Shown: positions 30,377-51,418 of the stretch, in pieces
Layout: every line of letters starts with the position of its first letter
Numbering within the stretch: the stretch's first letter is position 1
Assembly: GCA_013204105.1 (NCBI GenBank)
Contig: JABMOM010000009.1
Span: 1-64,000, forward strand
From: Flavobacteriales bacterium
GTDB lineage: Bacteria; Bacteroidota; Bacteroidia; Flavobacteriales_G; Salibacteraceae
DNA: 64,000 nt
Reading direction: 5' to 3'
Program-made: the position numbers and the translations under genes
Notes under the pieces: generated by a model
What the model was told of the DNA's origin: nothing
The model's database searches: none
Seen by the model: only the letters and a program-made list of their open reading frames with translations

Positions 30377-30472
30377 TCGAGAGTTGCAAATGTATTCAGC
30401 AGGCCCAAAATGCCGCATAGATTGTTTCTAAATTTCGGGCATCTTCGTGCTGAACCTAAAATACCAAAGCGC

Positions 30473-31507
30473 ATGGACAAAGCCACAAGGATCATTGGAT
30501 ACATTGGCTTGATTCCCCTCTTAATCGGGAGCCTCTTCAAAATTCAACATTGGCCGGGCGCTGGATTGCTGATTGTATTATCCGTGAGTCTATTGGTCGT
30601 GGCTTTCATGCCGATGTACATCGTTCATCGCATTATCAAGCGTACATCCACCCTTGGGATGATTGAGGGGATAATGCTCGGAGTCACGGGCATGTTTGTG
30701 CTGCTCGGAATGCTATTCAAGATCCAACATTGGCCTGGGGGTGGTGTGATGATGATCGTTGGAAACACGATGCTCGCATTCACCCTAGGTATCATGATCG
30801 TACGCGCGATTGAAGCGAAGGAGTACAAACAGAGTTGGAGCATGCTCGGATTCATGTTTGCCGTGGCCTTGGTTTTTTTCGGTTGGTCGCTGAATTGGAG
30901 CAGGGATTTTCTTGTCTCTATCCAGCACAACGATGCACTGATCCAGCGAAATGAGGATGCGATGATGCAATCCAATGCAGCACTTCGATCACTGCTTGAT
31001 CGCAATGATTCACTCCAGGCGGAATGGAAGGAAGTCTCACAGCACTCTGAAGCGATGCAGGATTACATACAAGACATTCAAAACCTGATCATAACGGGTT
31101 GTCTTGGACAATCACCGAGCATAGAATCTTATGCTTCAGCAAGCGATGTTTGGGCACAAGACAATTACGACATCCCTACCCAAATTCTGATTGGATACGA
31201 CCCCGCTAGTCCCATCGAAGATGAATATTCGGCCTACTCACTGCGAGTAAAACTGACTGAGTATGCTTCGACGATGAAAGGCTTGACAACAGATCTTGAG
31301 ACACAAACCATGATCGATTCCTTATACAGCTTCCAGGATCACACTTCGAATGGAATGGTGTACTCGTGGGAAGTCATGCATTTCTATCACGCTTCATTCG
31401 CCAGCGTGATGCAGACGCTTAACACGCTTCAGCTCGGCGTTGCAATGACCGAAAATCGCTTGCTCCATCAAACCTTGGAAACCCACTTGAAGACAACTGT
31501 GGATTGA
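30473..31507 (+). CDS. Membrane protein joining a GldL-like membrane part to a GldM-like periplasmic domain
   Basis: A 344-residue protein. The first ~140 residues hold four membrane spans and two copies of the motif (L/F)FKIQHWPGAG/GG, the signature of GldL-type proteins. A fifth span (MLGFMFAVALVFFGWSLNW) follows, then a coiled coil (about 150-205) and a C-terminal domain with QDNYDIPTQILIG, WEVMHFYHASFASVMQTLNTLQLG and TENRLL. The same layout occurs in the protein at 49670-50935. In GldM the N-terminal periplasmic domain has a comparable NYDIPT/W-x-F-x-x-x-P/LxxLQxDV arrangement (from memory of the family). GldL and GldM form the proton-driven T9SS/gliding motor. The start at 30473 is chosen; TGA overlaps the hemW ATG. 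Confidence 0.75.
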   Translation: MDKATRIIGYIGLIPLLIGSLFKIQHWPGAGLLIVLSVSLLVVAFMPMYIVHRIIKRTSTLGMIEGIMLGVTGMFVLLGMLFKIQHWPGGGVMMIVGNTMLAFTLGIMIVRAIEAKEYKQSWSMLGFMFAVALVFFGWSLNWSRDFLVSIQHNDALIQRNEDAMMQSNAALRSLLDRNDSLQAEWKEVSQHSEAMQDYIQDIQNLIITGCLGQSPSIESYASASDVWAQDNYDIPTQILIGYDPASPIEDEYSAYSLRVKLTEYASTMKGLTTDLETQTMIDSLYSFQDHTSNGMVYSWEVMHFYHASFASVMQTLNTLQLGVAMTENRLLHQTLETHLKTTVD

Positions 31508-47721: not shown

Positions 47722-48030
47722 ATGAAAAACTTAGCCATTATTCTAACACTCGTCTCCGGACTCTACCTGAATGGCAAAGCCAAAGCAGAAGGTGTCGGAA
47801 CAGACAGTACGAAGCCAGACTCCAACGGCATGATCTCATGTCCATTGACCCTTCTTGAAAACGTTTCACTTGAAGCTGGAGCAGCGGCAGAAGCGCTCCT
47901 TTCGAATCCGAGCTATTCGGCTCCGGAGAAACGACAAGAGGATGACACCAGTAAAGAATTCTTGATGAAGCTCACTTCTATGAATGCTGCAAAGGCAGCA
48001 GAGGATATTAGAGTTAATCTGGAAGATTAA
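47722..48030 (+). CDS. Small exported protein of unknown function, tandem copy 1
   Basis: A 102-residue protein with signal peptide (MKNLAIILTLVSGLYLNGKAKA, cleavage near AEG), no membrane anchor, and a helical, alanine-rich mature part (about 78 residues). It is about 75% identical to the protein at 48678-48986; the longest shared blocks are LLSNPSYSAPEK and FLMKLTSMNAAKAAE. It has one cysteine (ISC), which the second copy lacks. No family recognised. Two promoters upstream and a terminator downstream make it a single-gene unit. Confidence 0.8.
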   Translation: MKNLAIILTLVSGLYLNGKAKAEGVGTDSTKPDSNGMISCPLTLLENVSLEAGAAAEALLSNPSYSAPEKRQEDDTSKEFLMKLTSMNAAKAAEDIRVNLED

Positions 48031-48677: not shown

Positions 48678-48986
48678 ATGAAAACCTTAGCCATTATTCT
48701 GACACTCGTTTCTGGACTCTACTTCAATGGCCAAGCCAACGCAGAAGGAGTCAAAACAGACACCACCCATCCTGACTCTAGCGGCATGACCGCGGGTCAA
48801 CTTAACATTCTCGAGAACGTTTCAATAGAAGCGGGGGAAGCAGCAGACGCGCTCCTATCCAATCCAAGCTATTCGGCTCCGGAGAAACTACAAGAGGAAA
48901 AGACCAGCACAGAATTCTTGATGAAGCTCACCTCCATGAACGCCGCAAAGGCAGCCGAGGAAATCCGGGTGGACATTGAAGAATAA
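48678..48986 (+). CDS. Small exported protein of unknown function, tandem copy 2
   Basis: A 102-residue paralogue of the protein at 47722-48030, same length and no gaps. Signal peptide MKTLAIILTLVSGLYFNGQANA; mature part rich in Ala, Glu and Ser. The conserved core (NVSIEAGEAADALLSNPSYS and KLTSMNAAKAAEEIRV) suggests a helical protein under purifying selection, with most changes in the region after the signal peptide. Own promoters and terminator. Confidence 0.8.
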   Translation: MKTLAIILTLVSGLYFNGQANAEGVKTDTTHPDSSGMTAGQLNILENVSIEAGEAADALLSNPSYSAPEKLQEEKTSTEFLMKLTSMNAAKAAEEIRVDIEE

Positions 48987-49054
48987 ACTTCCTACGCCAT
49001 TGAAAGGCAAAGGTTCTAGATACAATTCACCTTAGCTAAGGTTCTATATATATG

Positions 49055-49083
49055 AGTCCCACATTTTGTGGGACTTTTTTTTT
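49055..49083 (+). terminator. Intrinsic terminator, copy 2
   Basis: AGTCCCACA (49055-49063), loop TTT, TGTGGGACT (49067-49075), followed by eight T residues. Confidence 0.92.
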
Positions 49084-49105
49084 AGCAGCTTGTACATTCG
49101 CGGAT

Positions 49106-49594
49106 ATGAAAAAGGCATTACTCATAGGACTGATTTTACTCCCCTTCATCGCGTGCGCCCAGGTGGATGAACACGAGCATGAAATACACGACGAGCACGA
49201 ACACAATCACCACTATCATGTGGGAATTGCAATGGGACCTGTGTACGTGATAGGAGAGAACGAATTCGCTCCTGGGTTACACCTGCACATGGTTCGCTTG
49301 ATCGATCTATCCAAGGGAGAGCTGGGTTTGGGTGTAGGCCTAGAAGGCATATTTGATGAGCATCGTCATTATGCCGCATCCTTTAATATATCCTATTTGC
49401 CCATCCATAACCTGACGTTTACGGTTGCGCCCGGTGTTCAATACGGTGAAAACAACTACGCATTCACTACTCATTTCGAATGCTCGTATGAGTTCATCTT
49501 CGATCGTATCCACATCGGCCCCGTGATAGAATACGCATGGGCCACCACAGACGCCCACTTCATGGCGGGTGTTCATATTGGATTCGGCTTCTAA
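49106..49594 (+). CDS. Histidine-rich exported beta-strand protein
   Basis: A 162-residue protein. The signal peptide MKKALLIGLILLPFIACAQ may be cut after ACA or, less likely, lipidated at the Cys. The mature N-terminus VDEHEHEIHDEHEHNHHYH is a dense His/Glu/Asp cluster that should bind divalent metals. The rest alternates in beta-strand fashion (GELGLGVGLEGIFDEHRHYAAS, LTFTVAPGVQYG) and ends HIGFGF, the aromatic end of an outer-membrane beta-barrel. A metal-linked outer-membrane protein is inferred; no family recognised. The frame is open to 49052 but that part lies in the terminator. Confidence 0.75.
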   Translation: MKKALLIGLILLPFIACAQVDEHEHEIHDEHEHNHHYHVGIAMGPVYVIGENEFAPGLHLHMVRLIDLSKGELGLGVGLEGIFDEHRHYAASFNISYLPIHNLTFTVAPGVQYGENNYAFTTHFECSYEFIFDRIHIGPVIEYAWATTDAHFMAGVHIGFGF

Positions 49595-49601
49595 TCATTG
49601 C

Positions 49602-49642
49602 ATAAAAAAAGTCCCGTTGACCGAATGAACGGAACGGGACTT
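49602..49642 (-). terminator. Terminator of the PadR-GldL/M-like operon
   Basis: AAGTCCCGTT (49609-49618) pairs with AACGGGACTT (49633-49642) across 14 bases; on the minus strand the stem is followed by seven T residues (49604-49610). A second hairpin, AACAAGGC/GCCTTGTT with loop TGC, is at 49647-49665. Confidence 0.8.
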
Positions 49643-49669: not shown

Positions 49670-50935
49670 TCAGCTTCCGCTTGGCGGGCCAGAAGCCGTG
49701 GGCTGACTTAAGAGGTAAAGCAATACTTGGGTCTCTGCATTGCGAATGTCTAATTGCATCTTTGAGAGCTGAGAAATCACCGAACTCAACGGAATGTGGT
49801 AAAAATGGTAAGTAACCCAATCCATTTCATTCCCTCTGAATTCATACATCATGTTGAAATCAAAAGGTAAAATAGCCTCCATCTCATCTCTGATCACTGG
49901 GTCATAAGCTTGAAGCATTTCTCCTTGAAATTCCTCGAGCACGCCTAACAATGCATTCGCACTCCGTTCTTCTTGGTCTCCGAATAGGATGTGCGTGGGT
50001 ATGTCGTAGTTATCTTGCTTCGTCAAGGAATAGGTTTCGACTGCTCTGGCTTCGTCCAGAGAGATACCTTCTGTTTCAGCAATAAGGTGTAGTCTAAGAC
50101 CCTCAACCCTATTGATAGCCGTGCTAACGGCACTTTTAACTGCTTCACTTTCTGGTGATTTTTGAAGTTTTGCATAAAGCGCTGCATTGTTCGCAGCTCG
50201 AGTAGCGGAAGCATCCAATTCAGCGCCAACTAAGGAAAGTCCTCTGTTAAAATTTTCACTTCTATTGAAGCTCATCATTCCAAACACTAGGATCAGACAG
50301 GTCATTGCTACCAGTCCGCTTGAAAGCGTAATTGATTTGTTTGCAGAAGTCTTGTACTTTTTAAAGAAGTAAACGGGGACATAGGCTACGGCAAGGGCAG
50401 AGATTCCACCGAGAAGCATGACTGCCGCGCCAGGCCAATGCATAATCTTAAAAAGCACCCCAACGGTGGTAAGGGTCAGTCCGACAAAGCCAGAGATGTG
50501 CAACAAGTACTCATCGCTTGGTGATTCTTTCAGCTTATGCCAAAGCAACAACGGTAGATAGATGAGCGCCAGCACGCCGGCGCCAAGCACGAGCATCACC
50601 GCTGCACCGGGTAAATGAAGAAGTTTAAAAATCGTCCCCGCCAAGAGAAGAAAAGTAGAAGTCAGCCCGAAAGAAAATGCTGTTTTTTTCATGGTTACAT
50701 TCATTTCGGTTAATAATTCAAAGGTTTGTTGTTGGACCTGCTTTAAGCCCCCAGGTCCGAAGAGCTTGATTGTTTTGGCGAAGGCCTCTTCAAAAGAGCT
50801 GCCTCCGTCTATTAAATTTTCTATCGAGGTACACACGTGATCCAAGAGGTCGTCGTGCAAATCGTCAGATGCGACTCCGTGTTGCCTTATATAGGCGCTG
50901 ACGAGTTCGATCTGGGGTTCGTTCAATTCAGCCAT
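49670..50935 (-). CDS. PadR-linked membrane protein with GldL-like and GldM-like parts
   Basis: A 421-residue protein. Residues 1-75 form an acidic helical prefix (DDLHDDLLDHVCTSIENLIDGGSSFEEAFAKTIKLFG) of the kind that accompanies PadR regulators. Four membrane spans follow, with GTIFKLLHLPGAAVM and GVLFKIMHWPGAAVML, the GldL-type motif twice, then a fifth span and a coiled coil. The C-terminal domain has QDNYDIPTHILFG, WVTYHFYHIPLSSVISQLSKMQLDIRNAE and matches the protein at 30473-31507. In this copy the last segment resembles the end of the GldM N-terminal periplasmic domain. It overlaps padR by eight bases, so PadR controls it. A sensor or motor-like function is inference. Confidence 0.75.
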   Translation of the reverse strand: MAELNEPQIELVSAYIRQHGVASDDLHDDLLDHVCTSIENLIDGGSSFEEAFAKTIKLFGPGGLKQVQQQTFELLTEMNVTMKKTAFSFGLTSTFLLLAGTIFKLLHLPGAAVMLVLGAGVLALIYLPLLLWHKLKESPSDEYLLHISGFVGLTLTTVGVLFKIMHWPGAAVMLLGGISALAVAYVPVYFFKKYKTSANKSITLSSGLVAMTCLILVFGMMSFNRSENFNRGLSLVGAELDASATRAANNAALYAKLQKSPESEAVKSAVSTAINRVEGLRLHLIAETEGISLDEARAVETYSLTKQDNYDIPTHILFGDQEERSANALLGVLEEFQGEMLQAYDPVIRDEMEAILPFDFNMMYEFRGNEMDWVTYHFYHIPLSSVISQLSKMQLDIRNAETQVLLYLLSQPTASGPPSGS

Positions 50936-51278
50936 GGTAACTTGGATTTAGTGTGAATTTGTCTAGTAATCGGTTCATCGTGCTCGAGAACTCCCGAAAC
51001 TCTTGCACCAAATTGCCCGACGTCTCCGACCCGTTCTTGGTCAGCCTATAGTACTTGCGCACGCGCTTGCCGATGTTCACCTTCTCGGTGGTGAGTAAAC
51101 CATCCGCCTCTAAGCGGTGCAAGAGTGGATACAATGCTCCTTCGGTCAACTGGATTTTTCCATCCGTCGCCTCCTTCACGTGTTGTGTGATCTCGTAACC
51201 GTACATCCTCTCCTCTTTTGAGAGAAGGTTCAGCACGATCGTTTTGAGCGTTCCTTTGATGAGTTCATTCGAATACAT
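50928..51278 (-). CDS. PadR-family transcriptional regulator
   Basis: A 116-residue winged-helix repressor: LIKGTLKTIVLNLLSKEERMYGYEITQHVKEATDGKIQLTEGALYPLLHRLEADGLL (quoted by its extent, residues about 5-62) is the PadR core, followed by RVRKYYRLTKNG and a C-terminal dimer helix. The ATG at 51278 is chosen because the -7 box at 51283-51290 excludes the ATGs at 51293 and 51311. It probably represses itself and the downstream membrane protein through the dyad at 51273-51308. The ligand is unknown. Confidence 0.93.
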   Translation of the reverse strand: MYSNELIKGTLKTIVLNLLSKEERMYGYEITQHVKEATDGKIQLTEGALYPLLHRLEADGLLTTEKVNIGKRVRKYYRLTKNGSETSGNLVQEFREFSSTMNRLLDKFTLNPSYHG

Positions 51279-51308
51279 AAGGCAAATATACATCGGATCC
51301 TTATGTAT
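51273..51308 (-). promoter_or_regulatory. padR promoter within a dyad operator
   Basis: A perfect 9-bp inverted repeat, ATACATAAG (51273-51281) and CTTATGTAT (51300-51308), encloses the minus-strand -7 box TATATTTG (51290-51283). An additional half-site ATACAT is at 51288-51293. The right arm includes the padR ATG. The -7 box ends four bases before the ATG, so the mRNA would be leaderless or nearly so. Confidence 0.65.
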
Positions 51309-51418
51309 CAAAGAAATATTACCTAAGAATGTTAGGTATGCAAACTAACCACTTGATTATCAATGATAAAAAATTACATCCCATTCATGGCCGCCCCATC
51401 ACAGATACGTTGAACGCG

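Follow-up and report, generated by a model that had tools for sequence, protein, structure and literature searches.

The open reading frame (ORF) at positions 49670-50935 on the minus strand of the 64,000-nt stretch of DNA analyzed here (the window) encodes a 421-aa membrane protein, P0001, and overlaps the gene for a PadR regulator. The features of this locus, together with a paralogous gene elsewhere in the window, were as follows.

51319-51339, minus strand: distal putative PadR operator ATACCTAACATTCTTAGGTAA, an exact consensus match
51288-51308, minus strand: proximal putative PadR operator ATACATAAGGATCCGATGTAT, with two mismatches to the stricter pattern, overlapping the promoter
51283-51312, minus strand: presumed Bacteroidota-type promoter, TTTG-N18-TATATTTG, read from the sequence
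50928-51278, minus strand: padR, 116 aa (MYSNELIKG...), PF03551 at E = 7.4e-22, ATG conserved in relatives
50928-50935, minus strand: eight-base overlap of the padR stop with the start of the fusion gene, the same in many relatives
49670-50935, minus strand: prefix-GldL-GldL-GldM(D1) membrane protein P0001, 421 aa (Pfam, AlphaFold, Foldseek)
50702-50935, minus strand: N-terminal PadR-linked prefix, aa 1-78
50525-50680, minus strand: first GldL-type transmembrane (TM) hairpin, FKLLHLPGA, with Lys104/His107 kept and Leu122 at the Glu49 position
50348-50518, minus strand: second GldL-type TM hairpin, FKIMHWPGA, with Lys163/His166 kept and Leu181 at the Glu49 position
50273-50338, minus strand: fifth TM helix, equivalent to the GldM helix (AlphaFold helix 200-221)
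49706-50257, minus strand: periplasmic helical domain of GldM D1 type, aa 227-410 (PF12081 at 2e-17; Foldseek)
49603-49641, minus strand: likely intrinsic terminator AGTCCCGTT...AACGGGACTTTTTTT, read off the letters and not reported by the scan (loop limit 8)
30473-31507, plus strand: prefixless paralogue P0002 (Pfam and alignment), within the listed ORF 30410-31507

The PadR open frame (50928-51311, minus strand) and the fusion ORF shared exactly eight bases, as the preliminary description had reported, and the overlap is likely to bring about translational coupling of the two genes. The frame extends to 51311 via an upstream TTG; the start is probably the ATG at 51278, which gives the shorter PadR agreed on by relatives. 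A scan for promoters and terminators of the E. coli type returned nothing above chance, as expected of that consensus in Bacteroidota. Upstream of the gene lies the element TTTG-N18-TATATTTG, which we take to be a Bacteroidota promoter. Its box TATATTTG (noted at 51276-51290) ends four bases before the ATG at 51278, likewise in many relatives, and the padR mRNA may therefore be leaderless; a TATNTTTG box also recurs in many relatives.

P0001 proved to be the GldL/GldM-like fusion that it had been taken for, as evidenced by Pfam matches above the gathering scores to both GldM_1st (2e-17) and GldL_N (6e-9, in two stretches, the TM hairpins at about aa 86-137 and 140-196). The AlphaFold model (mean pLDDT 90) was compared with the PDB by Foldseek, and its 17 best matches were all GldM/PorM chains, including 7sau, 7sax and 6ys8, the best with a TM-score of 0.69 by target; a GldL chain stood lower in the list (probability 0.80). 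The NCBI equivalog cut-offs of TIGR03513 and TIGR03517 lay far off (28.7 versus 68.3 bits and 38.2 versus 180 bits, respectively), and P0001 should therefore be named neither GldL nor GldM. The family had been called unnamed, which holds for the architecture but not for its domains, which are already in Pfam. Among the prefix-bearing members, GldL_N was matched in 84/84 and GldM_1st in 49/84, the C-terminal domain of some being too diverged for a GldM_1st match.

The resemblance to a protein 18 kb away reflected a real paralogue: P0001 and P0002 aligned over 356 aa with 28% identity (E = 3e-24), and P0002 likewise scored above the Pfam gathering thresholds for GldL_N, in two stretches (2.2e-10), and for GldM_1st, in a single domain (2.9e-9). 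P0002 probably starts at Met22 of its listed ORF. Only the 49.7-kb copy belongs to a PadR operon, as proposed earlier; the 30.4-kb copy has neither the prefix nor an adjacent padR. P0002 stands head-to-head with a cytochrome-oxidase/heme-synthesis cluster (ctaB-like and coxC-like genes on the other strand), and a link to respiration is possible. The blocks by which the two proteins had been paired are signature blocks of GldM D1, and the genome's own GldM (547 aa) has DNYDIPT...NFYHLPLAAV. When these blocks were masked, the similarity of the two C-terminal domains was about chance (Z = 2.7, inside the shuffle range), so that direct pairwise proof of homology outside the blocks failed; each domain nevertheless matched D1 of the genome's own GldM, with Z = 32 and 22. 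Thus, because each is independently homologous to true GldM D1, the common ancestry of the two runs through the family and its GldM profile rather than through the pair. Genome-wide, we counted three such fusions in addition to a true gldL/gldM pair, which sits on another contig. In a tree of D1 domains, true GldM formed one clade (97/96); the deep branches of the fusion proteins were weak.

In Flavobacterium johnsoniae GldL, Glu49 in the second TM helix is strictly conserved and essential for proton harvesting (PMC8986121). In true GldLs from the sampled genomes the corresponding Lys and Glu were present in 33/33 and the His in 30/33. At the Glu49 position, an acidic residue was found in none of the 91 prefix-bearing members and in none of the 23 prefixless members covering that region, at both repeats, while the equivalents of Lys27 and His30 (K104/H107 and K163/H166 in P0001) were conserved to ~90-98% in both. 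The chain of P0001 ends after D1, at residue 421, and thus lacks the D2-D4 shaft of GldM that leads to the outer-membrane ring; a P0001 dimer would place four hairpins around two helices, a 4:2 rather than a 5:2 arrangement. The GldM helix opens with a PRQKM motif, whose Arg was absent from the five paired prefixless members alignable through the NVSK motif; the GldM-type helix of P0001 offered no alignable motif for this comparison. P0001 is like the GldL/GldM (PorL/PorM) motor of the type IX secretion system (T9SS) in its FKxxH-bearing TM hairpins, its GldM-type helix, its D1 domain and its predicted fold, but unlike it in being a single chain with two hairpins, in having lost Glu49 and D2-D4, in lying outside any gldKLMN cluster and in bearing a regulator-linked prefix. 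That P0001 is a GldLM-type proton motor working as a single chain is accordingly very improbable: in its favour are the equivalents of Lys27 and His30, kept in each repeat, and the GldM D1 domain, but no member has an acid at the position required for GldLM function (PMC8986121), the shaft is missing and the predicted stoichiometry differs. We therefore rejected a motor function for the fusion, and with it the motor-like half of the earlier suggestion of a motor- or sensor-like protein.

The association with PadR was assessed across relatives. GTDB genomes were scanned with P0001, a query containing no PadR sequence, and 80 loci were kept from the 544 relatives returned; the sample for the linkage counts consisted of these loci plus family members of related genomes and was chosen without regard to PadR. 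A padR gene lay directly upstream of, and mostly overlapped, 78 of the 85 prefix-bearing genes with room upstream. It stood one or two genes further up in the operon in five loci (L062, L112, L094 via the overlapping L112, L040 and L029) and was hidden by a wrong start call in L028, such that 84/85 prefix-bearing members had padR in the same operon. Among the prefixless members, by comparison, padR was directly adjacent in 0/33, a count that includes true GldMs; many Bacteroidales nevertheless carry a prefixless copy as the following membrane gene in the operon. The proposed association with PadR was thereby borne out, and no neighbour other than padR was broadly conserved; the recurrent neighbours included no gld or por gene. 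Among the papers on bacteria that were searched, none joined PadR with GldM. In some operons a conserved exported protein of ~430 aa is encoded between padR and the prefix-bearing gene (L040:3672-4988 and L029:3701-4990), and a relative of it also adjoins the gene in L039.

Upstream of padR, the palindrome WTAYMTAANNNNNTTAKRTAW was perfect in 36 of 79 loci and had at most one mismatch in 58 of 79, whereas dinucleotide shuffles gave expectations of 0 and 0.55, respectively, although this excess is somewhat inflated because the consensus was chosen after the sequences had been inspected. No site in the genome other than the distal one (51319-51339) matched the consensus exactly, and the two putative operators at padR were the only clear pair. 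A wider regulon was considered and dropped on this ground; of the other hits, the one inspected individually, a one-mismatch site on another contig (C30), falls inside a 401-aa open frame. The natural reading of this arrangement is that PadR represses its own operon, through a binding to the palindrome that we infer.

The prefix itself is predicted to form helices at residues 6-18, 24-43 and 48-59. Its residues D32, H33, C35 and E39, in the motif DHxC(C)xxxE, were invariant in 81/81 prefixes, and D32, C35 and E39 would lie on one face of helix 24-43. NCBIfam perm_prefix_1 (NF038403) matched P0001 at E = 1.3e-4 with 21.7 bits, below its 30-bit cut-off, and was the sole family with consistent matches among the relatives (33/81 prefixes at E <= 1, best 1.2e-8). 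Pfam HAAS (PF22564) did not match the prefix in the window and was not among the families listed for the 81 prefixes; the GxP kink motif of the third helix was not conserved (column 60 was Gly in 52%, and Pro61 was not conserved); and a search by sequence or fold for solved relatives gave none that was convincing, helical Z-scores up to 7 being common. This prefix and a PadR of the same kind were also found ahead of MacB/ADOP-like permeases (L144, L145) and of a 142-aa one-hairpin protein (L148). Because the pair also serves these proteins, PadR and the prefix form a constant couple of which the membrane part is exchangeable.

The arrangement corresponds to the published dyad of HAAS and a PadR-like winged helix-turn-helix (wHTH) protein, which has been proposed as an alternative to two-component systems (Ravi et al. 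2024, PMC11237479), in a paper that makes no mention of Gld. Like that dyad, the P0001 system has an adjoining stand-alone PadR-like wHTH protein, and its short alpha-helical domain stands at the N-terminus of several kinds of multi-TM protein, the membrane parts of which are exchangeable, FtsX/MacB among them. It is unlike the dyad in its GldL2-GldM(D1) membrane part and in a DHxC(C)xxxE prefix with neither a conserved GxP nor a Pfam HAAS match; because the latter are two defining features, we do not claim formal HAAS membership for the prefix. With the ADOP permeases (NF038403) it shares a PadR next door and a prefix that may be related to perm_prefix_1, the motif being identical in the Bacteroidota ADOP-like permeases of L144 and L145, but the GldLM part replaces the MacB/FtsX permease. 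The only other PadR gene of the genome (L162:113-2133, contig C25) overlaps a PspC-LiaI/LiaF-Toastrack gene, whose product had a sub-threshold HAAS match, and the two form a classical envelope-stress PadR pair.

The membrane module of P0001 also recurred with another output. The genome's third fusion, L146:6388-8457 on contig C7, reads GldL2-GldM(D1)-TM-coiled coil-SpoIIE phosphatase, with PF07228 at 5e-21 and PF12081 at 3e-17, and L113 and L071 hold fusions like it. A GldL-type hairpin region runs straight into SpoIIE, without GldM, in genes of L020, L025, L036 and L055, and these genes are divergent beside the PadR operon; in L020 both GldL_N and SpoIIE were confirmed by profile. SpoIIE/PP2C phosphatases of the SiaA kind are other outputs of the GldL(2)(-GldM) module (L146, L113, L071, L020), unlike P0001 in that the phosphatase is fused C-terminally whereas PadR would be coupled N-terminally. 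The use of one membrane module with two unrelated outputs argues for sensing, so that the sensor-like half of the earlier suggestion is upheld by the SpoIIE fusions together with the pairing of PadR and prefix. None of the papers on bacteria that were searched joined GldL with SpoIIE.

An alternative is that PadR senses a small molecule or a stress ligand on its own and that the GldLM-like protein is a repressed effector made only under stress, its prefix serving feedback or mere anchoring. A permease cargo would naturally be an effector, and there is a precedent in Listeria, where the PadR protein LltR represses lmo0600, a DUF1700 membrane protein that, as the effector, gives rise to the phenotype (PMC6624303). 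The prefix, however, persists on unrelated membrane parts and is missing where padR is not adjacent, and in the SpoIIE fusions this module serves as an input, which better fits a sensor. We consider this alternative rather unlikely.

The reading we judge probable, though well short of assured, is that the two genes form a self-regulated, PadR/HAAS-like envelope-signalling unit whose sensor is a decommissioned GldLM. It is supported by the architecture, the loss of Glu49, the linkage of PadR and prefix, the conserved palindrome and the exchange of membrane parts; the dedicated envelope system proposed in the preliminary description is likewise supported. PadR would sit on the two palindromes that overlie its own promoter, keeping the operon low, and the cytoplasmic prefix of the membrane protein encoded by the second gene would couple to PadR. 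The membrane and periplasmic part, GldL2-GldM(D1), related to the T9SS/gliding motor but without the proton-carrying glutamate, would respond to an envelope change, which might concern how the T9SS/GldLM machinery stands, what D1 contacts in the periplasm or whether the retained Lys/His pairs are protonated. Such a change would alter the helix bundle, and the prefix would relay this to PadR, with repression either relieved or tightened.

A more specific version of this reading, with which its probability overlaps, is a T9SS/gliding-motor checkpoint, in which the fusion joins or mimics GldLM and reports assembly or load to PadR. The ectodomain is indeed that of GldM D1, and GldM exceeded its curated cut-off in 42 of the 44 genomes bearing the sensor. 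Co-occurrence is weak evidence, however, as T9SS is common in the class, and the recurrent neighbours, with padR alone broadly conserved and gld/por genes missing, speak against it; we regard the checkpoint as possible but doubtful. More speculatively, and with perhaps one chance in a few, a proton-driven rotary motor was dismantled in evolution into a family of TM sensors with interchangeable PadR or SpoIIE outputs. The Lys/His relay retained from the motor would then sense either the proton motive force or the condition of the T9SS motor, with the DHxC(C)xxxE helix of the prefix acting as a PadR-docking site or a metal/redox switch. The GldLM/MotAB/ExbBD class of rotary motors is known for generating force; if the signalling interpretation is true, a widespread Bacteroidota family with a motor fold, minus the power residue and plus signalling outputs, would exemplify the conversion of a motor into a sensor and offer a point of entry into envelope control in Bacteroidota. 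Naming the architecture keeps such genes from being annotated as GldL/GldM motility genes, and each component, from PadR and its operator to the prefix and the module, is small and can be tested.

Next to the operon, positions 49052-49594 encode a small protein that is convergent with it and has a His/Glu-rich N-terminus (HEHEIHDEHEHNHHYH), for which metal binding is possible. A tandem pair of closely similar, 102-aa exported small proteins is encoded nearby, at 47722-48030 and 48678-48986.
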